Assembly: GCA_027492585.1 (NCBI GenBank)
Contig: JAPUEK010000034.1
Location: 1 to 64,000, forward strand
DNA from: Paracoccaceae bacterium
GTDB taxonomy: Bacteria > Pseudomonadota > Alphaproteobacteria > Rhodobacterales > Rhodobacteraceae
Direction of reading: 5' to 3'
DNA length: 64,000 nucleotides
Shown here: one piece after another, positions 7,132 through 42,238 of the stretch
Layout: the number at the start of each line of letters is the position of its first letter
Numbering within the stretch: position 1 is the first letter of the stretch
Translations under genes and position numbers: made by a program
Notes under the pieces: model-generated
The model's input: the letters and a program-made list of their open reading frames with translations, nothing else
What the model was told of the DNA's origin: nothing
The model's database searches: none

Positions 7132-7184
7132 GGCGGATCATCCCCCGAAGGGCGGGGACGGTTCAAGCGGGATGTTGCGGTCTT

Positions 7185-8075: not shown

Positions 8076-8195
8076 GCGCCTCTCTCCGATAGGTCGCGCA
8101 AGAGCAATCAGCTTTTTCCGGGCTGGGCAAGGCCCCTCCTCTGGCGGTTGTCAGGCAAGGAGGACACGGTTTCCGGGAGGAATGGGGCGGCGCTC

Positions 8196-8213
8196 AACAT
8201 GCACTTGCATGTT
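8196..8213. promoter_or_regulatory. Palindrome upstream of the TonB-dependent receptor
   Basis: AACATGCA-CT-TGCATGTT is a perfect 8-bp inverted repeat with a 2-base spacer, 79 bases upstream of the receptor start. Perfect symmetry and placement fit a transcription-factor operator controlling receptor expression. The TGCA halves recall alphaproteobacterial Fur/Mur sites (TGCAAAT-type), but the match is partial and the factor is unknown. Confidence 0.5.
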
Positions 8214-8291
8214 TTGGAAATCGGCGCTAACGGGAACCAAACGCGAAGCCATGGTCCTGCCTCAGCCACGCCTGTCCCAGACGGAGGCTCC

Positions 8292-10235
8292 ATGATCCGC
8301 ATCCTTTCCCAGACCCCGACCCTGCGCGCCGCCCTTCTGTGCGGTGCCGCCCTTGTCCTTGCCGCCCCCGCCGCGGCACAGATCATCAGCCTTGATCCGA
8401 TCATCGTCGAGGAACGTGACGAGCGGTCGGGAGCGGCGGACCGTGCGACCACGCAATATGTCTCCGATGCGGAGCTGGAACGGGCGCGGACCGGCAACCT
8501 CAAGGATCTCTTTTCCGGCATCGCCTCGGTTGCCGTGGGAGGTGCCGTGCCGGTGGCGCAAAAGATCTTCGTGAACGGGGTGGATATGCTGAACCTCGCC
8601 GTCACCATCGACGGGGTGGGCCAGAACAACCGCGCCTTCCACCACGTCAGCGCCAATGCGATTGATCCGGGCCTGCTGAAGGCGGTGCGCGCCGATGCCG
8701 GCGCCGCCCCCGCCGATGCCGGGCCGCAGGCGCTGGCCGGCTCGGTGGTTTTCGAGACGGTGGATGCCGGGGATATTCTGGAGGAGGGCCGCAATTTCGG
8801 CGGCGATCTGCGGCTGTCCTACGGCGACAACGGCAAGACCTTCACCCGCGCGCTGACCCTTGCCGGACGGCAGGCGGGGTTTGAATTCCTCGGCTATCTG
8901 AAATCCGCCACCGGCAAGGATTACGCCACCGGCGCCGGCAATGTCATTTCCGGCACGGCGGCGGATTTGCAGAGCGGGCTTCTGAAACTCGCCTATGAGG
9001 CACCCGAAGGCCACCGCATCGAACTGTCGGCGATGGAATTGCGCGATGATGCGCTGCGTCGCTGGCGGGCGAATATCGGGCAGGTCTCCGGCGGGCGTCC
9101 GGTGCCGGAACTGCGCCGCTATGACACGACGCGGCGCAACTATGCGCTGTCTTATGAGAATACCTCCGGCGGGGGAATGTGGGACCCGAAGCTCGTGCTC
9201 GGCTTCTCCGAGAGCCTGGTCAACATTCCGCAGACGGAGATGAGCGAAGGCACCACCAACAGCCTGAACGGCACGGCGCAGAACACCTTCCACCTGTCGG
9301 ACAAGGATACGGTGGTCGCGGGCGTCGATTTCTATGACCGCGCGGGGATCTACGACGATACCGATGAGCATTACCGCGAGGATGCCCGCAACATCGGCCT
9401 GTTCGTTCAGGCGCGTCTGGAGCCGGTGGAGCGGCTGAAACTCTCCTTCGGCCTGCGCTCCGACTGGCAGAGCTTTGATGGCGAGCGGGGCTTCAGCGGC
9501 TCCTATCAGGGGCTGAGCGGCAATACCTCCGTCTCCTATGGCGTCACCGAAGAGCTGGCCCTGCGCGCCGGCTATTCCAACGTTTTCGGCGGGTTGGCCA
9601 TCGAGGACAATTATGAGTTCTGGCGCAGCGGGGGCTGGAACTACGCCGGCCTGCGCCCGTCGCGGGCGGAGAATTTCACCCTCGGCGCGGATTATGCAGC
9701 CGGCGATCTGCGGCTGGGCGGCGAGATGTTCCTGACGCAGGTGACCGACGCGCGGTCCTGGGGCGGAAATTTCGATTTTGAAAGCAAGGGATTCAACCTC
9801 GGCGCCACCTATGGCTGGGAAGGGGGTTTTGCCCGGCTGACCTATTCCAACAGCAAGGTGAAGGTGAACGGCACAGTCTCCAACAGCTATGATGCGGTGG
9901 ATTTCGGCGCGCCGCTCGGTCAGGTGCTGGCGCTGGAGATGCGGCAGGCGCTGGGCGACAGCGGCTGGACGCTCGGCGGCAGCCTTGATCTGGCGCTCGA
10001 CTACGACGAGGTTCCGGCAGGGGCGCAACTGCCGATCAAGGGCTATGAAGTCGTCAGCCTCTTTGCCGAATACGTCCCGCCGAGCCGCCCGAACCTGCGG
10101 CTTCGGGCCGAGGTGCAGAACCTCTTCGATCAGGACTATGCGGACCGCGCCACCTACGGGGCCGATTTCTCGACCATCACACCGCTGAAGGAACCGGGCC
10201 GCCTGATCAGCCTGTCGCTGGTGGCGAAGTTCTGA
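8292..10235 (+). CDS. TonB-dependent outer membrane receptor (haem/siderophore type)
   Basis: Outer-membrane beta-barrel receptor of 647 residues, energised by TonB-ExbBD. The ATG at 8292 follows ACGGAGG and opens a signal peptide ending APAAAQ. A TonB box (DPIIVEE) lies at about residues 35-41. The plug domain includes FVNGVDMLNLAVTIDGVGQNN and the barrel ends in an aromatic terminal strand (LISLSLVAKF), the outer-membrane insertion signal. The plug looks closest to haem or siderophore receptors, but the ligand cannot be decided. A longer open frame reaches back to 7197 but crosses the bestrophin gene and is not real. A palindromic operator candidate is upstream. The siderophore operon at 0-3.7 kb may receive its cargo. 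Confidence 0.88.
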   Translation: MIRILSQTPTLRAALLCGAALVLAAPAAAQIISLDPIIVEERDERSGAADRATTQYVSDAELERARTGNLKDLFSGIASVAVGGAVPVAQKIFVNGVDMLNLAVTIDGVGQNNRAFHHVSANAIDPGLLKAVRADAGAAPADAGPQALAGSVVFETVDAGDILEEGRNFGGDLRLSYGDNGKTFTRALTLAGRQAGFEFLGYLKSATGKDYATGAGNVISGTAADLQSGLLKLAYEAPEGHRIELSAMELRDDALRRWRANIGQVSGGRPVPELRRYDTTRRNYALSYENTSGGGMWDPKLVLGFSESLVNIPQTEMSEGTTNSLNGTAQNTFHLSDKDTVVAGVDFYDRAGIYDDTDEHYREDARNIGLFVQARLEPVERLKLSFGLRSDWQSFDGERGFSGSYQGLSGNTSVSYGVTEELALRAGYSNVFGGLAIEDNYEFWRSGGWNYAGLRPSRAENFTLGADYAAGDLRLGGEMFLTQVTDARSWGGNFDFESKGFNLGATYGWEGGFARLTYSNSKVKVNGTVSNSYDAVDFGAPLGQVLALEMRQALGDSGWTLGGSLDLALDYDEVPAGAQLPIKGYEVVSLFAEYVPPSRPNLRLRAEVQNLFDQDYADRATYGADFSTITPLKEPGRLISLSLVAKF

Positions 10236-10247
10236 GCAGACTCACTC

Positions 10248-10312
10248 CTTCATCCACTGTGCATAAATATCCTGCAGGGAGGTCCGGAGGGGTGCAAAAC
10301 CCCTCCGGCGCC
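10248..10312 (+). repeat. Dispersed intergenic hairpin element, copy B
   Basis: Arm CTTCATCCACTGTGCATAAA and TATCCTGCAGGGAGGT, then a 9-bp perfect hairpin CCGGAGGGG-TGCAAAA-CCCCTCCGG (10284-10308). It starts 12 bases after the TonB receptor stop, in the same orientation relative to the gene as copies A and D. It may act as a transcript end, although there is no T-tract. Confidence 0.8.
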
Positions 10313-10346
10313 AGAGCAGGGCGCAACGCCCGCCAAATGTCATCCG

Positions 10347-10940
10347 CTAGCGGCGGCGCAGATAGACGTAATAGGCCCCCGCGCCACCATGCCGAAGATG
10401 CGCCTCGGTCACTTGCAGCACGGCGGGGCCGAGCGGGGCGAGCCGCAGCCATTGCGGCACCTGATGGCGCAGGGCGCCGACGCGATGCGGGATCGGGCCG
10501 ATATCGGGGCCGCGCTTGCCCTTTCCGGTGATCACCAGCACCAGCCGCAGCCCCGCGCTCTGGGCGTTGAGGAGGAAGCGGATCAGTTCGGGATGCGCTT
10601 CGGCAAGGGTCATGCCATGCAGGTCGATGCGCGCCTCGGGCAGGATCTTGCCGCGCGTCATCTTGCCATGGGTCTTGGCATCCATCTGCAAGGGGGCGGA
10701 GGCGAGGCTTTCGGCAAGGCTCGGCGCGATGTGATGGGCGGTCTCGTGCCGGGCGCGCTCCCCCATCATGAAAGCGGGAAGGCGCGGGCGGGGGGCAGGG
10801 TCGGCGGGTTTCACCACCACGGGCGCGGGAGGCACCTCCGGCAGCGCGAGCCGGCAGCGCCCCTTGAATGGCCGGGTGCTGCGGGCAACGGCGTGCCACA
10901 GCTCCTCTTCCTCCGGGCGCAGGGTGCGGCGGCGGGCCAT
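10347..10940 (-). CDS. Smr-domain (MutS2 C-terminal-like) protein
   Basis: A 197-residue protein with a C-terminal Smr domain: ARIDLHGMTLAEAH (the LDLHG motif) about two thirds along, then VLVITGKGKRG, the HGxGxG-like turn, and a terminal GAGAYYVYLRR strand. Smr domains are nucleases or nucleic-acid-binding modules. The N-terminal 80 residues are Pro/Arg-rich and likely disordered. The ATG at 10940 sits immediately after the mltA stop, giving tight coupling in the order timA-like, mltA, smr. The cellular role of stand-alone Smr proteins in alphaproteobacteria is unsettled. Confidence 0.85.
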   Translation of the reverse strand: MARRRTLRPEEEELWHAVARSTRPFKGRCRLALPEVPPAPVVVKPADPAPRPRLPAFMMGERARHETAHHIAPSLAESLASAPLQMDAKTHGKMTRGKILPEARIDLHGMTLAEAHPELIRFLLNAQSAGLRLVLVITGKGKRGPDIGPIPHRVGALRHQVPQWLRLAPLGPAVLQVTEAHLRHGGAGAYYVYLRRR

Positions 10941-10941
10941 C

Positions 10942-11964
10942 TCAGCCCTCCGGCAGCAGGGCGTAGGCGCGGTCGATGGGCAGAAGGACAATCATCCGGC
11001 CGCCATCCTTGATCGTTCCGGCGGCCTCACCGGCGGCATTGCCGGTCCCGTAGAAGATGTCGGCACGCTGCGGCCCCTTGATCGCCCCGCCGGTATCCTG
11101 CGCCACCATCAGGGCGCGGATCGGATCGTCGCCCTCCTTCTCGATCCAGACCGGCGCGCCGAGCGGGGTGAAATCCGGGTCGATGGCGATGGAGCGCAGC
11201 GTCGTGATCGACCGGCCCATGGCCCCGATCGGGCCGCGATCGGCAGGCAGATCCTCCAGCTTGCGGAAGAAGACATAGGAGGGGTTGAAGTTCAGCATGT
11301 CGCTGCCGGCCTGACCGGAGCGCTTCACCCAGGCGCGGATCTCCTGGGCGGAGACCTGATCGGGCGTATGGGTGCCGCGCCGGATCATCTCCTTGCCGAC
11401 GGAGCGATAGGCATGGCCATTGCGCCCGGCATAGCCGACGCGCATCACATGACCATCGGGCATCCTGATCCGGCCGGACCCCTGGACATGGAGGAAGTAA
11501 ACCTCCACCGGGTCTTCGAGCCAGGCGAGTTCCAGCCCGCGGCCCCGGATCGCCCCACCCTCGATGGCGGCGCGGTCGTAATAGACCTGACCATCGGTCA
11601 GCTCCGGCGGGCGGCGGTAGATCGGCCAGGCGAAGCGCGGTGTCCGGACGGGAGAGCCGTTCAGCTCCGGCTCGTAATAGCCGGTGAAAAGGGCAGGCGG
11701 GTTGCCGATCAGCACCGGCTTGAAGAACAGCTCGAAGAAATCGCGGGCGGCGGCATCGCTGGCCGTCGCCTCCGGTGCGAAACGGCAGATCGGCGTCCAG
11801 TCCGGGCTGTCGAGCCGGTCGCAGGTGGCAAGGAAGCTCGTCAGGGCGGCGCGGTGGTCATCCGCCTCCCAGCCATCGAGTTCCTCGAAGGACAGGATCT
11901 GCGCGGAAACGGGGCTCGCGGCCATGGTCAGCACCAGCAGGCTGAGACGGAGAAGACCCCGCAT
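10942..11964 (-). CDS. mltA: Membrane-bound lytic murein transglycosylase A
   Basis: Peptidoglycan-cleaving lytic transglycosylase (340 residues) acting in the periplasm and leaving 1,6-anhydro-muropeptides. A signal peptide starts at the ATG at 11964 (MRGLLRLSLLVLTMAASPVSA), with no lipobox cysteine visible, so it may be soluble. MltA motifs present are LFTGYYEPELNGS, VYFLHVQGSGRI, AYRSVGKEMI and the 3D-domain VAQDTGGAIKGPQRADIFYG, whose aspartate corresponds to the catalytic Asp of the family. It lies between a Tim44-like gene (10-base gap) and smr (1-base gap) on one transcript. This trio beside fxsA and secB is a typical origin-proximal alphaproteobacterial arrangement. Confidence 0.92.
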   Translation of the reverse strand: MRGLLRLSLLVLTMAASPVSAQILSFEELDGWEADDHRAALTSFLATCDRLDSPDWTPICRFAPEATASDAAARDFFELFFKPVLIGNPPALFTGYYEPELNGSPVRTPRFAWPIYRRPPELTDGQVYYDRAAIEGGAIRGRGLELAWLEDPVEVYFLHVQGSGRIRMPDGHVMRVGYAGRNGHAYRSVGKEMIRRGTHTPDQVSAQEIRAWVKRSGQAGSDMLNFNPSYVFFRKLEDLPADRGPIGAMGRSITTLRSIAIDPDFTPLGAPVWIEKEGDDPIRALMVAQDTGGAIKGPQRADIFYGTGNAAGEAAGTIKDGGRMIVLLPIDRAYALLPEG

Positions 11965-11974
11965 CGCCAGCCCA

Positions 11975-12634
11975 TCAGTCCCCGGTGGCCACGAGCTGCC
12001 AGTTCGGGTCCGAAACCCCCATCCGGCGCGAGAAGGTCCAGCTGTCGCGCTGGCGCTTGATGTCGGTGGCGGAGCCGTCGACGACTTCACCGGCCTTGTT
12101 GCGGACGACGGAAGTCAGTTCACCAAGGAAGCGCACCGTGATTTCCGCGGTGCGGGTGTCACGGTCGAATTCCGCATCGGCGAGCGTCAGCTCGCGCACC
12201 CCGACGAAATCGGCCTGAACCGTCAGGCCTTCGCGTTCGCGGGCGTTGATCGCCTGGGCGAAGGTTGCCTCCACCTCGTCGGACAGGAAGGGGCGGATGC
12301 TGTCGAGATCGCCGCGCTCGAAGGCGATGAGGATCATCTCATAGGCGCCGCGCGCGCCCTTGAGGAAATCGGCCACGGAAAAGCCCGGCTCGGCCAGCTT
12401 CATCGCACCGAGCGCCTTGGCGGCATCGGAGCCTTCGGGAACCTGGTCGATGATGTCGCGGTCCGGCCCGCCTTCGATGACCTCGAAGGGGCGCTTGGCG
12501 CGCGGTGTCACATCCTCCAGCGGCACGGTAGGTTTCTCGAAGCCGTCGCGGGTGCCGAGGACGGAACGCAGTTTCAGCACCAGAAAGACCGCGATACCGG
12601 CGAGAACGAGAAGCTGGATCAGGGAAGAATTCAT
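11975..12634 (-). CDS. Tim44/TimA-like membrane-anchored protein
   Basis: A 219-residue protein with one N-terminal transmembrane anchor (SSLIQLLVLAGIAVFLVLKL) followed by a soluble Tim44-like domain: FLKGARGAYEMILIAFERGDLDSIRPFLSDEV is the conserved entry helix set. Mitochondrial Tim44 tethers Hsp70 to the import pore. The alphaproteobacterial counterparts are membrane-bound and of less certain function, sometimes linked to secretion or envelope quality control. The position next to secB and fxsA is conserved in this class. Neighbouring mltA follows after 10 bases. Confidence 0.85.
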   Translation of the reverse strand: MNSSLIQLLVLAGIAVFLVLKLRSVLGTRDGFEKPTVPLEDVTPRAKRPFEVIEGGPDRDIIDQVPEGSDAAKALGAMKLAEPGFSVADFLKGARGAYEMILIAFERGDLDSIRPFLSDEVEATFAQAINAREREGLTVQADFVGVRELTLADAEFDRDTRTAEITVRFLGELTSVVRNKAGEVVDGSATDIKRQRDSWTFSRRMGVSDPNWQLVATGD

Positions 12635-12755
12635 CAGTGCCTCATCGGTCCGGGGGGAAGGAGGGGTTGGTGATCCGGACCATTGCGCCCTATGTAGGGG
12701 CTGGGTCCGCGCAAGTCTATCCTGCGGGCCGATATTGGGGCTTCAGGAGGCGGTG

Positions 12756-13226
12756 ATGCGGCTTTACGGGCTGTTTCTGGTGTGGACTCTGGCAGAAATC
12801 GCCGCATTTGTCGTGGTCGGCGGCTGGATCGGCGTCTGGGGCGTGCTGGCTTTGGTGCTGGGAACGGCGGTCGGCGGAGCTTTGCTGATCCGCGGGCAGG
12901 GGATGGCAGCCCTTCAGGCGATGCCCCGCGGGCGGGTTGCCATGGTGCAGTCGCTGGAGCCTCTGGCCCATGGCGGGATGATCGCCCTTGCCGGAGTGCT
13001 GCTGATCCTGCCGGGTCTGATCGGGGATGCGCTTGGCCTTCTGCTGCTGATCCCGCCGGTGCGGAGCGGCCTTTTGCGGCTGCTGTCGCGGATGCTTCCG
13101 CAGGGCGATCCGCGTGCCGCCTGGCGGGCGGAGGCCGGGGGCGGTGATGTGCTCGATGGCGAATATACCGAAATCCGCACCGATCAGGACCGAATCCACC
13201 CGCCTTCGGGCTGGACGCGGCATTGA
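12756..13226 (+). CDS. fxsA: FxsA family membrane protein
   Basis: A 156-residue protein with AGGAGG six bases before the ATG at 12756. Three or four hydrophobic segments occupy the first 110 residues. The family pattern is visible: AEIAAFVVVGGWIGVWGVLALVLGTAVGG, QGMAALQ, then GVLLILPGLIGDALGLLLLIPPVR, and a charged tail (DVLDGEYTEI). E. coli FxsA suppresses F-plasmid exclusion of phage T7; its normal role is unknown. The gene is divergent from the Tim44-like gene and precedes secB with a 58-base gap. Open sequence upstream to 12360 is antisense to the Tim44-like gene and was not included. Confidence 0.88.
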   Translation: MRLYGLFLVWTLAEIAAFVVVGGWIGVWGVLALVLGTAVGGALLIRGQGMAALQAMPRGRVAMVQSLEPLAHGGMIALAGVLLILPGLIGDALGLLLLIPPVRSGLLRLLSRMLPQGDPRAAWRAEAGGGDVLDGEYTEIRTDQDRIHPPSGWTRH

Positions 13227-13284
13227 GAGCGCCTCGCCTTCCTGCTAGGAACGGCGCAACCCGATGTCATGAGGAGTGAGTGGG

Positions 13285-13770
13285 ATGGCCGAGGAAAACG
13301 GCGCGGCACCGCAGGTTCGGATGCAGGTGCTGGCACAATTCGTGCGCGACATGTCCTTCGAGAATGTGGTGGCGCAAAAAGGTCTGTCCGGGGCCGATGT
13401 GCAGCCGGACATTCAGGTGGCCGTCAGCCTCGATGCGCGCAAGCGCGCGGTGGACAGCCAGTATGACGTGATCACCAAGTTCAAGGTGACCTCGAAGAAC
13501 AAGGCGACCGGCGAGACCCTTTTCCTGCTGGAGGTCGATTACGGCGGGATCTTCCTGGTGGAGGGCGTGCCGGAAGAGCAGCTCCACCCCTTCCTGCTGA
13601 TCGAATGTCCGCGGATGCTGTTCCCCTTCGTGCGGCGGATCATCTCGGATGTGACCCGCGACGGTGGCTTCCCGCCGCTGAACATCGACACGGTGGACTT
13701 CCTGGCGCTTTACCGTCAGGAGCTGGCCCGCCGCGCGCAGGCTCAGGCCGCACAGGCGCAGCCGAACTGA
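13285..13770 (+). CDS. secB: Protein-export chaperone SecB
   Basis: Tetrameric cytosolic chaperone that holds preproteins unfolded and delivers them to SecA. The 161-residue protein shows RMQVLAQFVRDMSFENV at the N terminus, LEVDYGGIFLVEGVPEEQLHPFLLIECPRMLFPFVRRIISDVTRDGGFPPL as the highly conserved centre (signature residues around CPRMLFPF), and an Ala/Gln-rich tail. I prefer the ATG at 13285, eight bases after AGGAG, over the in-frame GTG at 13276. An intrinsic terminator follows directly. Confidence 0.96.
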   Translation: MAEENGAAPQVRMQVLAQFVRDMSFENVVAQKGLSGADVQPDIQVAVSLDARKRAVDSQYDVITKFKVTSKNKATGETLFLLEVDYGGIFLVEGVPEEQLHPFLLIECPRMLFPFVRRIISDVTRDGGFPPLNIDTVDFLALYRQELARRAQAQAAQAQPN

Positions 13771-13788
13771 TCGGTCAGAATTTGCGGG

Positions 13789-13814
13789 GGCCGGTCCTTC
13801 GGGGCCGGCTTTTT
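13789..13814 (+). terminator. Rho-independent terminator after secB
   Basis: GCCGGTCC paired with GGGCCGGC around a TTCG-containing loop, followed by TTTTT. One G-T pair is present in the stem. It ends the secB transcript 20-40 bases after the stop, just before the convergent dnaQ stop at 13819, and is the clearest intrinsic terminator in the window. Confidence 0.85.
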
Positions 13815-13818
13815 GCTG

Positions 13819-14520
13819 TCAGCCGCGCTTCTTCCAGATGGAGCCATCGCCGAGCTTGGCGATGAAGGCGGCGTGGGCGGCGGCTTCGGCCTCTGTCAAA
13901 CGGGGCGGCAACGGGGTCTGGCGCGGACGCGGGCGCCAGTCGGAAGGGGCTGTGGTCTGGCCTTGCGCCGGGCGTTGGTCGGGCGCCGGGGAAAGGACCA
14001 GATCCGGCTGGCGGCCGCCGATCAGCTCCAGGTAGACCTCGGCAAGGATTTCGCTGTCCAAGAGCGCGCCGTGCTTTTCGCGCTTGGAATTGTCCACTCC
14101 GAAGCGGCGGCAGAGCGCATCGAGTGAGGCCGGGGAGCCGGGAAACTTCGAGCGGGCGATGGCCAGCGTATCGGTGGCGCGCGCCCAGGGAATGGTGGGC
14201 AGGCCGATGGTCTTCAACTCATGGTTCAGGAATTTCATGTCGAAGGCGGCATTGTGGATCACAAGCTGGCCGTCGCCGATGAAATCGAGAAAGGCCTGCC
14301 CCACGGCGCGGAAGACCGGCTTGTCACGCAGGAAATCATCGCCGAGGCCGTGGACCTCGAAAGCCTCCTTCGGCATCGGGCGCTCGGGGTTGATATATTG
14401 GTGATAGGTGCGGCCGGTGGGCAGGTGGTTGAACAGTTCCACCGCGCCGATCTCGACGATGCGGTCGCCTTCGGCGGGTTCGAAGCCGGTGGTTTCGGTG
14501 TCGAGGACGATCTCACGCAT
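13819..14520 (-). CDS. dnaQ: DNA polymerase III epsilon subunit (3'-5' exonuclease)
   Basis: Proofreading subunit of the replicative polymerase, 233 residues. DEDDh exonuclease motifs are all present: ExoI IVLDTETTGFEP near the N terminus, ExoII VIHNAAFDMKFLNHEL, and ExoIII HGALLDSEILAEVYLEL with its histidine. The C-terminal tail after about residue 175 is Pro/Arg-rich and ends AAHAAFIAKLGDGSIW, probably the clamp and alpha-binding part. I took the ATG at 14520 (MREIVLD); the frame extends upstream into coaE without coding character. It is the last gene of the maf-aroE-coaE-dnaQ run and is six bases from coaE. Confidence 0.95.
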   Translation of the reverse strand: MREIVLDTETTGFEPAEGDRIVEIGAVELFNHLPTGRTYHQYINPERPMPKEAFEVHGLGDDFLRDKPVFRAVGQAFLDFIGDGQLVIHNAAFDMKFLNHELKTIGLPTIPWARATDTLAIARSKFPGSPASLDALCRRFGVDNSKREKHGALLDSEILAEVYLELIGGRQPDLVLSPAPDQRPAQGQTTAPSDWRPRPRQTPLPPRLTEAEAAAHAAFIAKLGDGSIWKKRG

Positions 14521-14525
14521 TGGGT

Positions 14526-15119
14526 TCACGCATCGGGATGGCTTTCCTTGATTTCCGCAAGGATGCGGCGGACGGAGGCGCGGGCGCCCTCCAGCGTCAG
14601 GGTTTCGATAACCCAGGTGGCGCGGGTGCGCTTTTCGGCATCGGGCATCTGGCGGGAGAGGATGAGTTCCAGCTCTTCCGGGGTCATGGTGCCGCGGGCG
14701 AGGAGACGCTCGCGCTGGATCTCGGGCGGGACGGTGACGGTGACGGTGGCATCGCAAAGCGCATCAGCTCCGGTCTCGAAGAGAAGCGGGATGTCGAGGA
14801 GGAGGATGCCTTTCGGATGGGCGGAAAGGAAGGCGTTGCGGTCGGCGGCAGTAAGGGGGTGGACCACGGCCTGCACCCTGTCGAGCACACCGGGATCGGC
14901 GGCGATGAGTGCGCGGAGACGGGGGCGGGAGATGGCCCCGTCCTCAATGGCCTCGGGGAAGAGCGGTTGCAGGGCGAGGGTGGCAGCGCCGCCGGGGCCA
15001 TAGAGGCGGTGGACGGTGGCATCGGCGTCCCAGACCGGCACGCCCTCGGCCGCGAAAAGCGCGGCGGTGGTGCTTTTGCCCATGCCCATGGAGCCGGTGA
15101 GGCCGAGAATGAAGCTCAT
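14526..15119 (-). CDS. coaE: Dephospho-CoA kinase
   Basis: Catalyses the last step of CoA synthesis, ATP-dependent phosphorylation of dephospho-CoA. The 197-residue protein has the P-loop GLTGSMGMGKST at about residues 6-17, WDADATVHRLY (the CoaE DAD motif), and IPLLFETG, a conserved substrate-lid segment. The ATG at 15119 overlaps the aroE stop in ATGA, showing coupling. Size and motif spacing are normal. Confidence 0.95.
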   Translation of the reverse strand: MSFILGLTGSMGMGKSTTAALFAAEGVPVWDADATVHRLYGPGGAATLALQPLFPEAIEDGAISRPRLRALIAADPGVLDRVQAVVHPLTAADRNAFLSAHPKGILLLDIPLLFETGADALCDATVTVTVPPEIQRERLLARGTMTPEELELILSRQMPDAEKRTRATWVIETLTLEGARASVRRILAEIKESHPDA

Positions 15120-15955
15120 GGCCCAAGCACGGCGGCGCGGGTGGCATCGTCCACCTCGGGGCGATGGCCGAACCAACGCTCAAAGCCCGGAACAGCTTGA
15201 TGGAGGAGCATTCCGAGGCCGTCCACGGTGGTGCAGCCCCTGGCTTCCGCTTCCAGAAGAAATTGGGTTTTCAAGGGGTTGTAGACAAGATCGGTGACAA
15301 GCGCGCCGGGCTCCAGAGCATCGAGGGGGACGCGGAATTCGGGCTTGCCGGCCATGCCGAGGGAGGTGGTGTTGACCACGGTGGTCGCCCCTTCGAGCAT
15401 GTTCGGGGCCTGCACCCAATCCACGGCCACGATCTTTGCGCCGAAATCGGAGCGGAGCGCCTCTGTCCGCGGGCGGCTGCGGTTGGCGATGCGGATTTCG
15501 GGGACGCCGACTTCGATCAGGGCGGCGATGACAGCACGGGAGGCGCCGCCTGCGCCGAAGACCGCGGCAGGGCCGGTCGCCGGATTCCAGTCCGGCGCAT
15601 GTTGGCGGAGGTTCGCCATGAAGCCGGAACCATCGGTGTTGTCGGCATGGATGCGCCCATCCTTGCGGAAGATCAGCGTGTTGGCCGCCCCGATCAGCGC
15701 CGCGCGGTCGGTGACGATATCGGCGAGTTTCAGCACCTCTTCCTTGTGGGGAAGGGTAACGTTGATGCCGACGAAACCGAGCTTCGGCAGCATTTCCAGC
15801 GCCTGTTTCAGATCCTGCGGAGCGATGTCCATGGGGATGTAATGGCCGCGGATGCCGTAGCGGCGCAGCCAGTAGCCATGCAGCGCCGGAGAGCGGCTAT
15901 GGGCGATCGGGTGGCCGATCACACCGGCAAGGGGGATGCGGGGCAGGTCTGTCAT
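15116..15955 (-). CDS. aroE: Shikimate dehydrogenase (NADP+)
   Basis: Fourth step of the shikimate pathway, reduction of 3-dehydroshikimate. The 279-residue protein shows the substrate site [19 protein letters not shown] with the Ser-x-Ser pair, NVTLPHKE carrying the catalytic lysine, ADNTDGSGF with the catalytic aspartate, the Rossmann motif [11 protein letters not shown], and the NRSRPRT NADP-specificity loop. Its start overlaps the maf stop by four bases and its stop overlaps the coaE start by four bases, so three enzymes are translationally chained. Confidence 0.96.
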
Positions 15956-16557
15956 GTCTCGATGAAGCCTCTGAGGCCAAGGTAGGAGAGGAGCGGAAGG
16001 AGCGGTAGCCCGAGAATGGTGAAGTAGTCGCCCTCGATGGCGGAAAACAGCCGGACGCCTTCGGCTTCGAGCATATAGGCGCCGACGCAAGCGGAGACGG
16101 CGGGCCAGTTCCGGTCAAGGTAGCCGTCGAGCCAGGCATCGGAGAAAGGATGCATGGTCAGGCGGGCTTCGGAGATATGGCGCCAGATCGGTTTGCCCTG
16201 ATCATAGAGGACGAGGGCGGAGAGGAGTTTGTGGGTCTGGCCGCGGAGGGTCTGGAGATGCTGACGCGCCTCCTCCCGGCTTTCGGGCTTGGCGAAGATC
16301 TGCTGTTTGAACGCGAGGATCTGGTCACAGCCGAGAACGAGAGCCTCGGGATGCTTGTCGGCAAGCTTGCGGGCCTTCATCTCGGCCAAAGCGTCGGCCA
16401 CGTCGCGGGGGGTGGCGGCTTCTTCGGTGAGGCTGGCACGGATCGCCTCCTCGTCGATGCGGGCGGGGAGAGCGGTGACGGAGAGCCCCGCAGAGCACAG
16501 GAGCTGCAGACGGATTTCGGAGGCGGAGGCCAGGAGAAGCGGGCGGGCGGCGGGCAT
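15952..16557 (-). CDS. Maf family nucleotide pyrophosphatase
   Basis: A 201-residue Maf/HAM1-superfamily enzyme; family members hydrolyse non-canonical or modified NTPs to monophosphates (house cleaning). [14 protein letters not shown] is the N-terminal phosphate-binding signature, followed by [19 protein letters not shown] (with the metal-binding Asp) and [32 protein letters not shown]. The arginine of the common SxSxxR stretch is retained as SEIR. It is the first gene of the maf-aroE-coaE-dnaQ operon. Its start codon is five bases from a perfect DnaA box, so it forms the left boundary of the origin. Confidence 0.9.
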
Positions 16558-16955
16558 CGGCTGTGGATAATCTCTTTATGTTCCGCAGGGCTCTTGAGGG
16601 GCGGTTTGGGCGGCAGAATGGCATCACGCGCGCCCTGTGGAAAGGGCCAGCTTTCTGAACAGGACCCGCCCGAGATGCCCACAAGTGGACAAGGCTCTGG
16701 CGCCCTTGGGGAAGGAGGAGTTTTCCACAAACTGTGGGAAAACGATGGAAAGCTCTGTATTCTTCATCTATATGAATAGATTACATAATTTCTTATCCGA
16801 AGGGGGTTTTCCCGGCTTTTCATCTGCTTATCCCGTGCTTTCCCTTTGGGGAAAACTCTGGGGGAGGCTGCGACAATCCTGTTATCCGCAGGGCCTACAT
16901 CCTCCTTTATCTTTCTTTCTCTTTGTCTTTAAGAAGAAGAAAGGGAGGGCTCAGA
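16558..16955. other. Probable chromosomal replication origin (oriC)
   Basis: A 398-bp gene-free gap between maf (leftward) and hemJ (rightward). A perfect DnaA box (TTATCCACA, minus strand) is at 16562-16570. Near matches are TTTTCCACA at 16721-16729, TTTCCCACA on minus at 16733-16741, CTTTCCACA on minus at 16636-16644, TTATCCGAA at 16793-16801, TTATCCCGT at 16828-16836 and TTATCCGCA at 16882-16890. An unusually AT-rich stretch (about 16757-16797) lies among them, a natural unwinding element. In Caulobacter the origin lies in the matching gene order, near maf-aroE-coaE-dnaQ-secB on one side and rho-mnmE-mnmG-rsmG-parAB on the other. Gene direction also switches here, leftward on the left and rightward on the right. 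No function was tested. Confidence 0.8.
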
Positions 16956-17405
16956 ATGGGCGATTTTCTCGGGACATGGTATTTCTGGATCAAGGCTTTG
17001 CATGTGATCTCGGTGATCGCCTGGATGGCGGGCTTGTTCTATCTGCCCCGGCTTTACGTCTATCATGCGGAGCAGGTGCAGAAAGGGTCGGAGACGGAGG
17101 CGATGTTCTTCGTCATGGAACGGCGGCTTCTGAAGGCGATCATCAACCCTGCGAGTGTGGCGACCTGGGTTTTCGGACTCTGTCTGGTCTTCACGCCGGG
17201 GATCGTCGATTGGGGAATGGCCTGGCCATGGGTCAAGGCGGGCTGTGTCCTTGGAATGACATGGTTCCATCACTGGCTCGGCTGGCGACGGAAGGATTTT
17301 CTCGAAGGCCGCAATGTGCTGAGCGGGCGAACCTACCGGATGATGAACGAAGTGCCGACGCTGCTGATGATTGTCATCGTCATCTCGGTGATGGTGAAGT
17401 TCTGA
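16956..17405 (+). CDS. hemJ: Protoporphyrinogen oxidase HemJ
   Basis: A 149-residue membrane protein that oxidises protoporphyrinogen IX in haem and bacteriochlorophyll synthesis where HemG/HemY are absent. Four hydrophobic helices are visible. The family signature is FWIKALHVISVIAWMAGLFYLPRLYVYH, with the conserved haem-ligand histidine in helix 1, and later MVVFGLCL-like and WFHHWLGWRR segments. The start at 16956 follows GGGAGGG. It is the first gene rightward from the origin. The hemE gene that often sits here in relatives is not present in this window. Confidence 0.92.
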   Translation: MGDFLGTWYFWIKALHVISVIAWMAGLFYLPRLYVYHAEQVQKGSETEAMFFVMERRLLKAIINPASVATWVFGLCLVFTPGIVDWGMAWPWVKAGCVLGMTWFHHWLGWRRKDFLEGRNVLSGRTYRMMNEVPTLLMIVIVISVMVKF

Positions 17406-17527
17406 AACTTGACTCCGCGGCGGGGGGGCCTTAGGTGCAGGGCAGCGGGGGCCGTCCGGCCCGCACCGCTTTCCTGACCTCTTGTTGATCTGGCTGCCCG
17501 GATGGGCGCCGCGAGGATATCTTTCCC

Positions 17528-18799
17528 ATGACAACCGAACATTTGAATCTTGCCGATCTGAAAGCCAAGACGCCGGCGGAGCTGCTGGCCATGGCCGAGG
17601 AATGGGAGATCGAAAACGCGCCTTCGATGCGGAAGGGCGAGATGATGTTCTCGATCCTGAAGGAACATGCGGAAGAGGGCTGGGAGATCGGTGGCGACGG
17701 GGTTCTGGAGGTCCTGCAGGACGGGTTCGGGTTTCTGCGCTCGACCTCGGCCAATTATCTGCCGGGGCCGGATGATATCTATGTGAGCCCGGAGATGATC
17801 CGGCAGTTCAGCCTGCGGACGGGCGATACGATCGAGGGCCTGATCCAGGCGCCGCGGGAAAATGAGCGCTATTTCAGCCTGACCAAGGCGACGAAGATCA
17901 ATTTCGACGATCCGGAAAAGGCACGGCACAAGGTTCACTTCGACAACCTGACGCCGCTTTATCCTGATGAGCGGCTGAAGATGGAGGTCGAGGACCCGAC
18001 GATCAAGGATCGCTCGGCTCGGATCATCGACCTGGTTTGTCCCATCGGGAAAGGGCAGCGGGGCTTGATCGTGGCGCCGCCGCGGACCGGGAAAACCGTG
18101 CTTTTGCAGAATATTGCCCATTCCATCGCAACCAATCATCCGGAGTGCTATCTGATCGTTCTGCTGATCGACGAGCGGCCGGAAGAGGTCACGGACATGC
18201 AGCGGTCCGTGAAGGGCGAGGTCGTGTCCTCGACCTTCGACGAGCCGGCGACGCGGCATGTTGCCGTGGCGGAAATGGTGATCGAGAAGGCGAAGCGGCT
18301 GGTTGAGCACAAGCGGGACGTGGTGATCCTGCTCGATTCGATCACGCGGCTGGGTCGGGCGTTCAATACGGTGGTTCCGTCCTCGGGCAAGGTGCTGACC
18401 GGGGGTGTGGATGCCAACGCGCTGCAACGGCCGAAGCGGTTCTTCGGCGCGGCGCGGAATATCGAAGAGGGCGGGTCTCTGACCATCATCGCAACGGCGC
18501 TGATTGATACCGGCAGCCGGATGGACGAGGTGATCTTTGAAGAATTCAAGGGAACCGGCAACAGTGAGATCGTGCTGGACCGGAAGGTTGCGGACAAGCG
18601 CGTGTTCCCGGCGATCGACATTCTGAAATCCGGGACGCGGAAGGAAGATCTGCTGGTCGAGAAGACCGATCTGCAGAAGACCTATGTGTTGCGGCGGATT
18701 CTGAATCCGATGGGGACGACGGATGCCATCGAGTTCCTGATCTCCAAGCTGAAGCAGACCAAGAGCAACAGCGAGTTTTTCGATTCGATGAACGCCTGA
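17528..18799 (+). CDS. rho: Transcription termination factor Rho
   Basis: Hexameric RNA-dependent ATPase that ends transcription at rut sites. The 423-residue protein is standard length. The N-terminal RNA-binding OSB domain includes [15 protein letters not shown], with [24 protein letters not shown]. Walker A APPRTGKT is at about residues 183-190, then [15 protein letters not shown] (Walker B) and [27 protein letters not shown] (the Q/R-loop region). A 122-bp leader separates it from hemJ and could hold its own promoter; Rho usually attenuates its own leader, though I see no specific site. mnmE follows after 30 bases. Confidence 0.97.
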
Positions 18800-18829
18800 G
18801 GTCAGTGGGTTTTCTGAAGCGAGGGTCAG

Positions 18830-20113
18830 ATGGATGTGATTTTTGCCCTGGCGAGCGCCAGAGGCAAGGCGGGCGTCTCTGTCTTGCGGCTTTCGGGAGA
18901 GGGATCTCATGCGGCAGTGGCGCGACTTTGCGCTTTGCCGTCCTTGCGGCGGGCGGCCTTGCGGCGGCTCGTCTGGCAGGGCGAAGTGCTGGATGACGCG
19001 CTGGTTCTGATCTTTGCCAAAGGTGCGAGTTTTACCGGGGAGGAAAGTGCGGAGCTCCACCTTCACGGGAGCTCAGCGGTAGTGGCAGCAGTTTTGCGGG
19101 TTCTGGGAGGGATGGAAGGGCTGCGCCCGGCGGAAGCAGGTGAGTTCACCAGACGTGCTCTGGAGAATGGCTGTCTTGATCTGACGCAGGTTGAAGGCCT
19201 GGCGGATCTGATCGATGCGGAGACGGAGGCGCAGCGGCGGCAAGCATTCCGGGTCTTGTCGGGAGCGGTCGGGGAGCGCGTAGAAGTTTGGCGCCGCGAT
19301 CTGGTTCGCGCGGCGGCTTTGATTGAAGCGACCATAGATTTTGCCGATGAAGAAGTGCCGATTGATGTGCGGCCCGAAGTCGGCGAAATCATCGCGCGAT
19401 TGCTGGAAAATCTGGAGCGCGAGCTGCGGGGCTCGGCGGTGTCGGAGCGAATCCGGGACGGATTCGAAGTGGCAATCGTCGGGGCTCCCAATGCAGGAAA
19501 ATCCACACTTCTCAATGCCTTGGCAGGGCGTGAGGCGGCAATCACCTCTGATATCGCCGGAACGACGCGGGATGTGATCGAGGTTCGCATGGATCTGGGG
19601 GGGCTGCCGGTAACGGTGCTCGATACGGCAGGTCTGCGCGATTCGGAGGATCGGATCGAGCGGATCGGCGTTGAGCGGGCATTGCTGCGAGCGGCTGCTG
19701 CCGATTTGCGGGTGTTTCTTCTGCAAGAGCCTGGCGAGGCGTTGATGCTGGAGCCGATGCCACAAGACATCGTGATGCTTGGCAAGGCGGATGAGCGACA
19801 AAATGCGGAAGGGGCCGTGTCAGGTCGGACGGGTTATGGTATTGAGGCGCTGATTGACGGGATCAGGCAGCGACTCTCTGAAAGGGCGGCTTCCGCCGGG
19901 CTTCTGATCCGCGAACGGCAGCGGGTTGCGCTTGAGAAAGCGGTTGTGGCGTTGAAGACGGGCGAATCGAGGCTGCAACAGGCGATCGTGTTGCCTGAAC
20001 TGGTTGCGGTGGAGTTGCGCTCCGCGATGCGGGCTTTGGAGGCGCTTCTGGGGCGTGTCGATGTGGAATCCTTGCTGGATGAGATTTTCTCCAGCTTTTG
20101 TATCGGGAAGTAG
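18830..20113 (+). CDS. mnmE: tRNA modification GTPase MnmE (TrmE)
   Basis: Works with MnmG to install the (carboxymethyl)aminomethyl group at C5 of the wobble uridine in certain tRNAs. The 427-residue protein has the N-terminal formyl-THF-binding domain ([22 protein letters not shown]), the G-domain with P-loop GAPNAGKST (about 218-226), DIAGTTRD (G2), DTAGLRDS (G3) and GKAD-like G4, and the C-terminal CIGK motif whose cysteine is functionally required. The stop at 20113 overlaps the ribosome-binding site of mnmG. Third codon positions are noticeably less GC-rich than in flanking operons. Confidence 0.97.
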
Positions 20114-20116
20114 GAG

Positions 20117-20132
20117 TGTTTCACGTGAAACA
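20117..20132. promoter_or_regulatory. parS: parS centromere site 1
   Basis: TGTTTCACGTGAAACA, a perfect 16-bp palindrome identical to the bacterial parS consensus. It spans the 5' end of mnmG, overlapping the codons around its start. It is about 3.4 kb from the proposed origin and would load the ParB encoded at 23430-24332. Confidence 0.95.
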
Positions 20133-21990
20133 TTTTGATGTCATCATCGTGGGTGGAGGTCATGCCGGCTGTGAGGCGGCGGCGGCTTCGGCGCGCATGG
20201 GTGTCCGAACGGCATTGGTGACGCTTCGCAAAGACGCTATCGGAACCATGTCCTGTAATCCTGCAATTGGCGGGTTGGGGAAGGGGCATCTCGTTCGGGA
20301 GATTGATGCGCTCGATGGCATCATGGGCCGGGCCGCAGACCGTGCAGGAATTCAGTTTCGATTGCTGAACCGCCGGAAGGGGCCGGCAGTTCAGGGTCCA
20401 CGCGCTCAGGCGGATCGGAGACTGTATCGTCAGGCGATCCAGGAGCTTCTGGCGCAGGAAGACAATCTGGTGATTCTGGAAGCCGAAGTTACGCGGCTGG
20501 TCGTTGAAGGTGGGCATGTGTCAGGTGTTGATCTGGGGTCAGGCGAGCGTCTGACAAGTCATGCTGTTGTTTTGACTGCGGGAACTTTTCTGAATGGGCT
20601 GATCCATGTTGGTGACCAACGGCGACCTGGCGGACGAGTTGGGGATCAACCTTCCATTTTGCTGGCGGAGCAATTGGCGGAGCTTTCGCTGGGGCGAGGT
20701 CGGCTGAAGACAGGGACGCCACCGCGGCTAGACGGCCGGACGATACGATGGGATCTTCTGGAAACGCAGCCTGGCGATGACGAGCCGGTGATGTTCTCGT
20801 TTCTGAACCGGAAGCCTGTTGTTCGGCAGATTTCTTGTGGCGTGACCCATACGAATGAGCGGACGCATGATTTGGTCCGGAGCAACCTTGATCGTTCGGC
20901 GATGTATGGCGGACATATCGAAGGGGTAGGGCCGCGATACTGCCCCTCCATTGAAGACAAGGTGGTTCGCTTCGCGGACAAGACCTCCCATCAGATCTTT
21001 CTGGAACCGGAAGGGCTTGATGACGATACAGTATACCCCAACGGCATTTCGACATCCCTGCCCGCGGACGTTCAGGAAGCCTATGTCCGGACGATCCATG
21101 GGCTAGAGAATGTAACCATCACGCAATCGGGTTATGCGATCGAGTATGACTATTTTGACCCTCGCGGGCTTCGCAGTTCGCTTGAGGTCAAGGCGCTGCC
21201 CGGTCTGTATTTTGCGGGGCAGATCAACGGCACGACGGGTTATGAGGAGGCTGCCGCCCAAGGTCTGGTTGCGGGATTGAGCGCGGCAGCCTTGATCAAA
21301 GGTAAGGATGCGCCGTCGTTTTCCCGGAGCGGAAGCTATATCGGGGTGATGGTCGATGATCTGACATCCCGAGGGGTGACGGAACCGTATCGCATGTTCA
21401 CATCACGCGCGGAGTTTCGCCTGACGCTTCGGGCGGACAATGCGGATCAGCGATTGACTCCAATGGGGATTGATCTTGGATGTGTGCGTAGTGACCGCGT
21501 TGAAGCCTTCGGCGCGAAGATGGAAAAAATCTGCCTGATGAAGGCGGAGCTTGGCGGGATCCAGGTTTCCGGGCGACAGTTGGCGGAAGCCGGCGTTGTT
21601 ACGTCTCCTGATGGGCCCCGCAGGACCGTTCTGGAAATCATGGCTTTTGCGGGTGTTGAGGATTCGCACCTTGATGCGCTTGTCCCCGACTATTTGTCCC
21701 GAGAGGCGGAGATACGGGTACAGGTGCAACGCGACGCGATTTATGCTCAGTATCTTGATCGCCAAAGCCATGAAATAGAGGCTTTGCGTCGTGAAGAGGC
21801 GGCAATACTGCCGGAAGATATTGATTATGGCTCTCTCGCAGGTCTTTCGACCGAACTGGCTCGTAAACTGGCAATTGCTCAACCTGCCAGCCTGGGGCAT
21901 GCTGCGCGCATTGAGGGGATGACTCCGGCGGCGTTGACAATCCTTCTTGCCCATATTCGAAAAGGGCGCAGGGAAGTCGCGGCGAAATGA
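20125..21990 (+). CDS. mnmG: tRNA uridine-5-carboxymethylaminomethyl modification enzyme MnmG (GidA)
   Basis: FAD-dependent partner of MnmE, about 621 residues. The FAD-binding motif [14 protein letters not shown] is at the start, then [23 protein letters not shown], both family hallmarks. [21 protein letters not shown] and [17 protein letters not shown] follow in the usual order. Start choice matters: GTG at 20116 (MFHVKHFD) touches the AGGAG, whereas GTG at 20125 (MKHFDVII) lies eight bases after it, so I chose 20125. Either start falls in or abuts a parS palindrome, so ParB binding overlaps the translation-initiation region. The stop overlaps rsmG by four bases. Confidence 0.96.
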
Positions 21991-22613
21991 AGGATTCCCG
22001 GTTCGCCGTTCCTTCATGGCTGGATGTTTCACGTGAAACACTCGATCGACTTCAGGCCTTCGTCGAGATGACGGTCGCCTGGAACAAGTCTATCAATCTG
22101 GTCGCAAACGCTGATCCAGATCTGCTTTGGTCTCGGCATATCCTTGATTCTGCACAGATCTTTGATCTTCTTCCGGGCCGGACTCAATCTTGGGCGGATC
22201 TTGGCAGCGGGGGCGGCTTCCCGGGTCTCGTTCTCGCCATTCTTGCGACTGAGAAATCTCCCGCCCTTTCCTTCACACTTGTGGAATCTGACAAGCGCAA
22301 AGCCGTATTCCTTTCGGAGGTGAGCCGGCGGCTGGATCTGAGGGCAATCGCTTTACCGAAGAGGATAGAAAGCATACCTCCTTTGAACGCGGATGTTGTT
22401 TCTGCAAGAGCACTTGCCCCGCTTTCAACTCTTCTGGACTATGGACAGCGCCATATGTCTGCCGGTGGCAAGCTCATCTTTCCGAAGGGCGCGAGGGCTG
22501 TCGAAGAGATCCAGGCTGTGCGACAGAAATGGCAGTTCAGTCTCTTTGAGCACGCCAGTCGAACGGATGAGAATGCGGTCATTCTAGAAATCACGGAGCT
22601 TCGCCATGCTTGA
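21987..22613 (+). CDS. rsmG: 16S rRNA (guanine527-N7)-methyltransferase RsmG (GidB)
   Basis: S-adenosylmethionine-dependent methyltransferase that modifies G527 of 16S rRNA; loss gives low-level streptomycin resistance in other bacteria. The 208-residue protein has [20 protein letters not shown], the SAM-binding [14 protein letters not shown] and a late [15 protein letters not shown] segment, all RsmG signatures. It is coupled to mnmG by ATGA at 21987-21990 and overlaps parA by eight bases. Codons 14-18 (VSRET) are contributed by a parS site. Confidence 0.96.
22025..22040. promoter_or_regulatory. parS: parS centromere site 2
   Basis: A second exact TGTTTCACGTGAAACA, inside the rsmG coding region near its 5' end. 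It is 1.9 kb from parS site 1 and just upstream of parA, so spreading ParB would cover the parAB genes. Confidence 0.95.
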
Positions 22614-23433
22614 TCTCAGCGCCGCCCCTCGGCCCCATATCATGGCGATCGCCAATCAGAAAGGTGGGGTCGGCAAGACGACAACCGCCATTAATCTCGC
22701 GGCGGGCCTTGTTGAAAAAGGTGCGCGCGCCCTTCTCGTTGATCTTGATCCCCAGGGAAATGCTTCGACGGGACTGGGCCTCGCGCCTGGAGACCGCAAG
22801 GCAACCAGCTACGATCTTCTGATGGATGAGGTTCCTGCGACCGAGATCATTGTCGAAACCACAACGCCTGGCCTTTTCCTCTGCCCGGCAACGGCCGATC
22901 TCGCATCTGCGGACATTGATCTTGTCGCGAATGAAAAGCGCAGCTTTCTTCTTCACGATGCGCTGAGGGAGCCCGGGCTCTCTCAGCTCGACTTCGACTT
23001 CATTCTGATCGACTGTCCGCCTTCGCTCAATCTCCTGACGGTGAATGCGCTTGTCGCAGCCCATTCCATTCTTGTCCCGCTTCAGACGGAGTTCTTTGCG
23101 CTTGAGGGCCTTTCCCAGCTGATGCTGACGATTCGCCAGATCAGAAAAACCGCCAACCCGACTCTGCGGATTGAGGGGGTTGTGCTCACCATGCATGACA
23201 GCCGCAATCGCCTCTCCCAACAGGTCGAGCATGATGCGCGCCGCACCTTGGGTGAGCTTGTCTTTGAGACGATTATCCCGCGAAATGTGAGGGTCGGTGA
23301 GGCGCCATCCTATTCGCTGCCAGTTCTTTCCTATGATACGAATTCCAAGGGTGCCGAAGCCTACAGAGCTTTGACACAAGAAATTCTGAACCGGCACCCG
23401 ATGAAGTTGCCCATGGAAGGAGCCGATCAATGA
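22606..23433 (+). CDS. parA: Chromosome partitioning ATPase ParA (Soj)
   Basis: Deviant-Walker ATPase that binds DNA non-specifically and moves ParB-parS complexes, separating newly copied origins. The 275-residue protein has KGGVGKTT at about residues 19-26 (signature lysine present), VDLDPQGNAST, FDFILIDCPPSLNLLTVNAL, and a VPLQTEFFALEGLSQL helix. No N-terminal HTH is present, so it is the chromosomal short form. The start at 22606 overlaps rsmG; a nearby ATG at 22642 is possible. It overlaps parB in ATGA. Confidence 0.96.
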   Translation: MLDLSAAPRPHIMAIANQKGGVGKTTTAINLAAGLVEKGARALLVDLDPQGNASTGLGLAPGDRKATSYDLLMDEVPATEIIVETTTPGLFLCPATADLASADIDLVANEKRSFLLHDALREPGLSQLDFDFILIDCPPSLNLLTVNALVAAHSILVPLQTEFFALEGLSQLMLTIRQIRKTANPTLRIEGVVLTMHDSRNRLSQQVEHDARRTLGELVFETIIPRNVRVGEAPSYSLPVLSYDTNSKGAEAYRALTQEILNRHPMKLPMEGADQ

Positions 23434-24332: not shown

Positions 24333-24353
24333 GGCATGGCCGAAGCCGGCCTG

Positions 24354-42222: not shown

Positions 42223-42238
42223 TGTTTCACGTGAAACA
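42223..42238. promoter_or_regulatory. parS: parS centromere site 4
   Basis: A fourth exact TGTTTCACGTGAAACA, ten bases after the argG stop, about 25 kb from the proposed origin. It is the only parS of the four that is not inside a gene. Confidence 0.94.

Follow-up and report, generated by a model that had tools for sequence, protein, structure and literature searches.

A very likely chromosomal replication origin between maf and hemJ in Rhodobacteraceae, and a possible variant DnaA-trio code beside it

Introduction

The replication origin (oriC) adjoins dnaA in many bacteria, and dnaA is a common anchor for chromosome numbering. Where would the main chromosome start to replicate in a family whose dnaA lies far off, and which DNA code would the initiator DnaA read to open the strands at that place? 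Both questions are raised by the 64 kb at the start of contig C34 (98,996 bp), subsequently designated the window, from a draft genome of 4.14 Mb and 100 contigs. The HemJ protein encoded in the window has its best named matches in Rhodobacteraceae, including Gemmobacter, Rhodobacter and Tabrizicola, at identities of 69-81%. A first-pass annotation of this DNA had assigned a probable chromosome replication origin to the gap between maf and hemJ. Here, we follow up this assignment by comparison with relatives and with other families of the Alphaproteobacteria.

Results

A gap with clustered DnaA boxes separates two divergent gene blocks

The annotated gap between maf and hemJ proved to be 398 bp in length and is surrounded by the following genes:

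15952-16557, minus strand: maf (best NCBIfam score just under the curated cut-off, E-value 4e-64)
16558-16955, no strand: maf-hemJ intergenic gap, proposed oriC, 398 bp
16956-17405, plus strand: hemJ (best NCBIfam score just under the curated cut-off, E-value 4e-40)
22606-23433, plus strand: parA
23430-24332, plus strand: parB

Genes dnaQ, coaE, aroE and maf occupy the minus strand left of the gap; to its right, hemJ, rho, mnmE, mnmG, rsmG, parA and parB are all encoded by the plus strand. This is the outward gene polarity that had been described previously, and the plus-strand genes said to interrupt the left-hand block, encoding a TonB receptor, FxsA and SecB, were found as well. The gap has a GC content of 51%. 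Of note, GC content is lowered to ~56-61% throughout positions 16000-26000, i.e. from the gap to beyond parB, most of the window having ~65%.

Two general marks of a bacterial oriC, a DnaA-box cluster above chance and an AT-rich unwinding element, are both found in the gap. It contains one perfect DnaA box accompanied by two sites with one mismatch and five with two mismatches, in line with the single perfect box and several near matches of the first-pass annotation. These eight box-like sites per 400 bp represent the top density of the 64-kb window. The draft genome carries nine perfect DnaA boxes including the one in the gap; around the other perfect boxes that were examined, the DNA holds at most four sites per 400 bp. 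The AT-rich core was also borne out: the AT-richest 50 bp of the window begin at position 16749, and its least stable 30 bp likewise lie inside the gap. The elements of the gap are arranged as follows:

16562-16570, minus strand: perfect DnaA box TTATCCACA at the maf end of the gap (the consensus of the relatives reads ctgtGGa.aa here)
16721-16729, plus strand: DnaA box TTTTCCACA, one mismatch
16733-16741, minus strand: DnaA-box-like site TTTCCCACA, two mismatches, forming an inverted pair with 16721-16729
16749-16798, no strand: central AT-rich core, candidate unwinding element 1, 74% AT, weakest 30 bp at 16766-16795
16845-16928, plus strand: conserved right-hand block (model R1), 84 positions
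16882-16890, plus strand: DnaA box TTATCCGCA, one mismatch, adjoining the candidate trio array
16891-16894: GGGC spacer between box 16882-16890 and the trio array
16895-16906, minus strand: candidate trio array (plus strand CTA CAT CCT CCT; minus strand 3'-GAT GTA GGA GGA-5'), recognised via alignment to relatives
16905-16934, no strand: T-rich low-stability stretch past the trios, candidate unwinding element 2, third among the weakest 30-bp stretches of the window

The genome has four perfect parS sites, all of them in the window, 3-25 kb right of the gap:

20118-20131, no strand: perfect parS GTTTCACGTGAAAC
22026-22039, no strand: perfect parS
25889-25902, no strand: perfect parS
42224-42237, no strand: perfect parS

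A fifth parS with one mismatch is present on contig C89. Two perfect parS sites also lie near hemJ in each of four sampled relatives (G003, G034, G013 and G035). Beside the distant parS at 42224, five DnaA-box-like sites with at most two mismatches fall into a 400-bp bin within 41600-42000.

The CtrA site motif TTAA-N7-TTAA does not occur in the 64-kb window, and the strict IHF consensus is absent from the gap of the window and present in 16 of 99 gaps of the family.

The right-hand block of the gap is conserved independently of hemJ and maf

We collected 109 loci of relatives, 80 of them from named contigs; in 103 of the 109, the fetched DNA contains maf and hemJ in divergent orientation. Both genes are separated by 337-474 bp in 102 of these 103 cases. 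The gap is 1205 bp in the remaining one (G015; loci L020 and L271), where the conserved block remains on the hemJ side. The 98 distinct gaps of at most 600 bp contain 265 sites that deviate from the DnaA box by at most one mismatch, as compared to 7.8 in single-letter shuffles, and only two of the 98 gaps are devoid of such a site.

When the last 170 bp of 99 gaps (these 98 and the window) were aligned with a raised gap cost, a conserved block emerged, the consensus of which begins with CnTGTGGAnAAnTCnGnGGAnAAnnnnnTAATCCACAnTATCCACAGGCCCTACATCATCATCATCTTTT (53 gaps). An HMM built without the window detected the block at 16847-16921 with E = 3.5e-11, the next best match in the window having E = 2.8. 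Model R1, whose 53 training blocks comprised that of the window and those of some searched genomes, matched in 35 of 61 genomes, i.e. in 31 of 37 members of the family (own genome included) and in four of 24 genomes from other families, three of these four matches being weak. In a larger draw, the block was found in 199 of 248 family genomes, training genomes among them; four of these had two matches, and under strict filters no R1 match was obtained in 49 of the 248. Inspection of the surroundings revealed that 29 of 30 matches adjoin rho together with maf, aroE or hemJ. The block resides between maf and rho in four relatives which lack hemJ at this place (G009, G011, G020 and G025), and between aroE and hemJ in G023, which has no maf in the fetched 3 kb. 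As the block is kept where hemJ or maf is missing, it is independent of either gene. Outside the family, G049 has a strong R1 match at two places, the inspected one (L270) being no origin neighbourhood, and G055 has a weak match (E = 0.008) ~360 bp from COG1806, the canonical origin place.

KOPS polarity switches at the gap in most sampled relatives

A sign switch of full-genome GC skew at the gap had been proposed as a check of the origin, and within the window this check fails: the skew is positive in all 15 one-kb bins of 7,001-22,000, on both sides of the gap. Local GC skew is therefore no origin marker here, as the plus strand is G-rich on either side. Over 7000-32000, the plus strand is G-rich at 7-22 kb across the gap and mostly C-rich at ~25-32 kb. 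KOPS-like motifs left of the gap (eight on the plus strand, none on the minus strand) are contrary to the expected sense, and both local markers were discarded as uninformative or contrary.

Since the genome of the window is a draft of 100 contigs, genome-wide skew was addressed in relatives only. We sampled 20-kb stretches from four relatives whose chromosome is a single contig (G003 and G034, 40 each; G013 and G035, 20 each), assuming circular contigs and an opposite terminus. Within sampling, the best single-origin split of KOPS polarity coincided with the gap in three of the four, namely G034, G013 and G035; in G003 it is located 107-137 kb from the gap, with a score of 111 vs 85 at the gap. 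Mean GC skew left and right of the gap is -0.023/+0.020 in G003, -0.023/+0.024 in G013, -0.009/+0.011 in G035 and -0.001/+0.018 in G034, i.e. its sign changes in all four, the left mean of G034 being close to zero. Individual stretches are noisy in each of these relatives. If the contigs are circular, dnaA is ~82 kb away from the gap in G003, ~633 kb in G034, ~216 kb in G013 and ~89 kb in G035.

Could the signals at the gap have another explanation than an origin? One is that the conserved block comprises only the promoter and leader of hemJ, or divergent maf/hemJ promoters, the origin being elsewhere in the parS region. In those relatives in which the array was located, it does precede hemJ by ~40-110 bp, as this explanation would have it. 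However, the block contains DnaA-box-like sites and persists between maf and rho in the four relatives mentioned above, and in other families of the class a related array adjoins hemE rather than hemJ. In addition, a search for sigma-70-like promoters in 16300-17100 (other promoter types were outside its scope) and an Rfam search of 16000-17500 returned no match. A hemJ promoter or a structured RNA was therefore rejected as reading of the block, and we regard this explanation as very improbable. A coding leader peptide at the array is unlikely too, because the distance to hemJ varies and the variable letter of the array would alter a residue in every frame. The other explanation, an origin at dnaA or at a different DnaA-box site of the genome, draws on the common vicinity of oriC and dnaA, on the contigs of the chromosomes of G034 and G003, which begin at dnaA, and on two perfect boxes in the same orientation 703 bp apart on contig C72 (L039). 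Our scan for clusters of imperfect boxes outside the window covered the surroundings of dnaA, hemE, C72 and the other examined perfect boxes. Within the 3.5-4 kb inspected at dnaA (L205) and at hemE (L204), no site comes within one mismatch of the DnaA box; the 3 kb at the C72 pair hold at most two sites per 400 bp, and KOPS polarity of G034 splits at the hemJ gap despite the large distance of dnaA. Origins at dnaA, hemE or the C72 pair were rejected because boxes are lacking in the DNA examined, and we give this second explanation hardly any credit.

The gap and the place of the Caulobacter origin

In Caulobacter, the origin Cori is flanked by hemE and COG1806, according to the description of this locus in PMC1914354. 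The flanking gene order had been noted to match the Caulobacter neighbourhood, which is true only in part: hemE and COG1806 do not flank the gap. COG1806/PF03618 yielded no match in the genome of the window, and hemE is on another contig. In contrast, five genomes from other families of the class (G037, G045, G048, G050 and G052) have COG1806 and hemJ in divergent orientation, 1.4-2.8 kb apart, with hemE beside the gap. As other families keep COG1806, hemE and hemJ together, the gap probably corresponds to the same ancestral place as Cori after both flanking genes had left.

A trinucleotide array follows the boxes of the conserved block

The conserved block is composed of boxes, a short GC-rich spacer and a trinucleotide array, in this order. 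In the window alone, the array does not rise above chance: the best run reaches three of five triplets (shuffle mean 2.5), and two of five with boxes masked. The columns of the 99-gap alignment read, on the trio strand, 3'-G-(A/T)-T followed by repeated 3'-G-T-(A/T)-5', in which bases 1 and 2 are conserved and base 3 is free. At the first trio, 3'-GAT-5' is the commonest reading (92, 75 and 86% for its three letters), whereas later trios are mostly 3'-GTA-5' and 3'-GTT-5'. The 3-base period is nearly gap-free across the 99 sequences, with a single rare insertion column (7/99).

The conserved middle adenine that characterizes the trios of the Bacillus subtilis basal unwinding system (BUS) is not seen in the register set by the box, where the second letter on the trio strand is mostly T. 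When the register is shifted by one base, the middle letter becomes A or T; at least three consecutive 3'-NAN-5' trios then occur in 41 of the 99 gaps, all four in 28 of them, and these 41 gaps consequently need no new code. A loose B. subtilis rule in our own version, requiring at least three 3'-NAN-5' within 16 bp of a box, was passed by the window and by 53 of the 99 gaps, but also by 37% of shuffles with planted boxes.

To compare families, we counted C-first triplets in runs of five. Among the 28 COG1806-hemE gaps of other families (30 COG1806 loci read, 28 used), the best run averaged 3.71 as compared to 2.54 in dinucleotide shuffles. The rule was devised once the alignment of the family and the 30 initial COG1806 loci had been seen, and hence the counts from the 99 and 28 gaps are not independent of it. 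Independence applies to 33 further origins that were fetched after the rule had been fixed (40 stretches fetched, of which seven were dropped; stretches were kept where hemE is on the expected side): the mean was 3.67 and at least four of five triplets were C-first in 19 of 33, against 2.56 and 6.6% in shuffles. Without masking, this threshold was reached in 78 of 99 gaps of the family, 17 of 28 in the first other-family set and the said 19 of 33 in the later one. As some of these best runs overlapped DnaA boxes, which contain CCACAG, the count was repeated with DnaA-box-like letters masked, giving 63 of 99, 17 of 28 and 18 of 33, respectively. The opposite strand of the same stretches gave no run of this kind, and shuffles gave 4.6-5.6%. 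The commonest triplets in the 33 origins are CTA (the textbook 3'-GAT-5'), CAA and CAT.

DnaA of the class differs from that of B. subtilis at positions 187 and 202

Adjacent DnaA protomers of B. subtilis capture bases 1 and 2 of a trio (3'-G-A) between them, but not base 3; an amino group is needed on the middle base, which contacts Asn187, and thymine at this position slowed opening (PMC10721633, in the parts dealing with trio recognition). DnaA of the genome of the window has Tyr at the position of B. subtilis Asn187 and Lys at the position of Arg202. We aligned 50 alphaproteobacterial DnaA proteins, representing 50 of 59 genomes with a DnaA match. The 187 position is occupied by Tyr in 46, Phe in two, Leu in one, Arg in one and Asn in none of them, and the 202 position by Lys in all 50. 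E. coli DnaA has Gln and Lys, respectively. Because Asn187 is absent in every aligned genome, the change in the protein cannot be correlated with the change in the trios inside the class.

Discussion

We conclude that the maf-hemJ gap is very likely the oriC of the main chromosome, an origin of known kind, and put the probability of this reading, including a DnaA filament that crosses the GC spacer onto the adjacent trio array and segregation of the copies by parAB/parS, at about 0.88. The initial claim of a probable chromosome replication origin is thus supported by the enrichment of box-like sites, the conserved block, clustering of parS and the KOPS switch in three of four relatives. Comparison of genomes speaks for the place of this origin, its conservation, its persistence without hemJ or maf and the polarity switch in most sampled relatives, while binding of DnaA and strand opening at the gap are predictions from sequence. 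In the proposed sequence of events, DnaA would bind the predicted boxes at either end of the gap and in its centre. A filament starting from the boxes at 16847-16890 would cross the short GC-rich spacer onto one strand of the array, presumably the minus strand, on which trios would be read 3' to 5' away from the box. The T-rich DNA toward hemJ would then melt, allowing helicase loading; the central AT-rich core may melt too. Finally, the adjoining parAB and parS would segregate the new copies.

How DnaA would read the array is a separate matter. We tentatively propose, at somewhat less than even odds, that origins of Alphaproteobacteria, most clearly those of Rhodobacteraceae, are opened through a variant trio code with 3'-G first, T second or third and no fixed middle A (3'-GTA, GTT, GAT, GGT-5'), which would be read by a DnaA carrying Asn187->Tyr and Arg202->Lys. 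Reading of 3'-G-T-(A/T)-5' trios by a DnaA with Tyr in place of Asn187 is likewise a prediction. The odds of the variant code are slightly lowered by the best runs that overlapped DnaA boxes and by the textbook register shifted by one base. Pelliciari et al., in the sections that treat trio definition, describe trios as 3'-NAN-5' and suspected that trios without the middle adenine exist, termed 'deviant DnaA-trio' (PMC8287927); if real, the variant code may, with the same reservation, be this deviant form. In passages of PMC10225481, PMC6727663 and PMC10797057, which belong to the open-access literature on DnaA-trios together with Caulobacter, we found no description of an alphaproteobacterial trio, although a report elsewhere is possible.

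Three other interpretations of strand opening at the gap have to be weighed. The array could be a textbook DnaA-trio array (3'-TAG-5', middle A) in the register shifted by one base, needing no new code. This would fit the published 3'-NAN-5' definition and the 41 gaps that display it, but the shifted array is missing in the other 58, and its would-be middle A is precisely the letter that is free to be A or T, the two neighbouring letters being the conserved ones; we consider this unlikely. Alternatively, the array might be a plain T-rich or pyrimidine-rich unwinding element that owes its 3-base period to slippage of simple repeats and carries no DnaA code. CAT and CAA repeats do count as simple repeats, and stability is low in this stretch, yet the period remains almost free of gaps while single letters vary, and the array is confined to one strand both in the family and in the 33 origins of other families, rendering this interpretation rather unlikely. 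Lastly, the main opening site may be the central AT-rich core instead of the hemJ-side array. The core includes the least stable 30 bp of the window and is less stable than the hemJ-side stretch in 53 of the 99 gaps; strongest sequence conservation and the order of box, spacer and trios are, however, features of the hemJ side. We deem a central opening site possible, with doubt prevailing.

For a family whose dnaA lies far off, the gap provides a precise candidate origin. The variant trio code is the part that deserves specialist attention, the origin itself being of known kind: whether trios free of a middle adenine exist becomes directly testable, as the sequence and the protein change are both defined and an assay has been published.

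Among known systems, Cori of Caulobacter crescentus resembles the gap in its length (404 bp, i.e. ~400 bp), its DnaA boxes and its AT-rich stretch, but has CtrA and IHF sites in addition to the hemE and COG1806 flanks, as far as described in the passages on Cori architecture (PMC1914354). The gap studied here is flanked by maf and hemJ instead and has no full CtrA site and no strict IHF site, so that the Cori-type flanks, CtrA sites and IHF site are not found. Within the family, Ori-Finder predicted oriC in 101 Rhodobacteraceae chromosomes with parAB proximity as one criterion (PMC6699656), and OriC1 of R. sphaeroides was placed by cumulative skew (PMC6315104). These predictions share parAB proximity, a local GC minimum and DnaA boxes with the gap; in the passages presenting them, neither report mentions the gap, its neighbouring genes, a conserved block or trios. 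Marker frequency has been measured in Cereibacter and Paracoccus (PMC13342612), the relevant passages giving no position at gene level. In the unwinding element of E. coli oriC, single-strand contacts need 5'-TTGT-3' and 5'-TTATT-3', as stated in the sections of PMC5742627 on these contacts. The former contains 3'-GTT-5', one of the trios seen here, but E. coli uses 13-mer repeats rather than a long array, and its DnaA has Gln187. The BUS of B. subtilis, in the accounts given in parts of PMC8287927 and PMC10721633, consists of boxes, a GC-rich spacer and 3'-GAT-5' trios. The gap has the same order and its first trio is mostly 3'-GAT-5' as well; it differs in the later trios, which are mostly 3'-GTA-5' and 3'-GTT-5', and in the reader of the middle A, Asn187, in place of which DnaA has Tyr.
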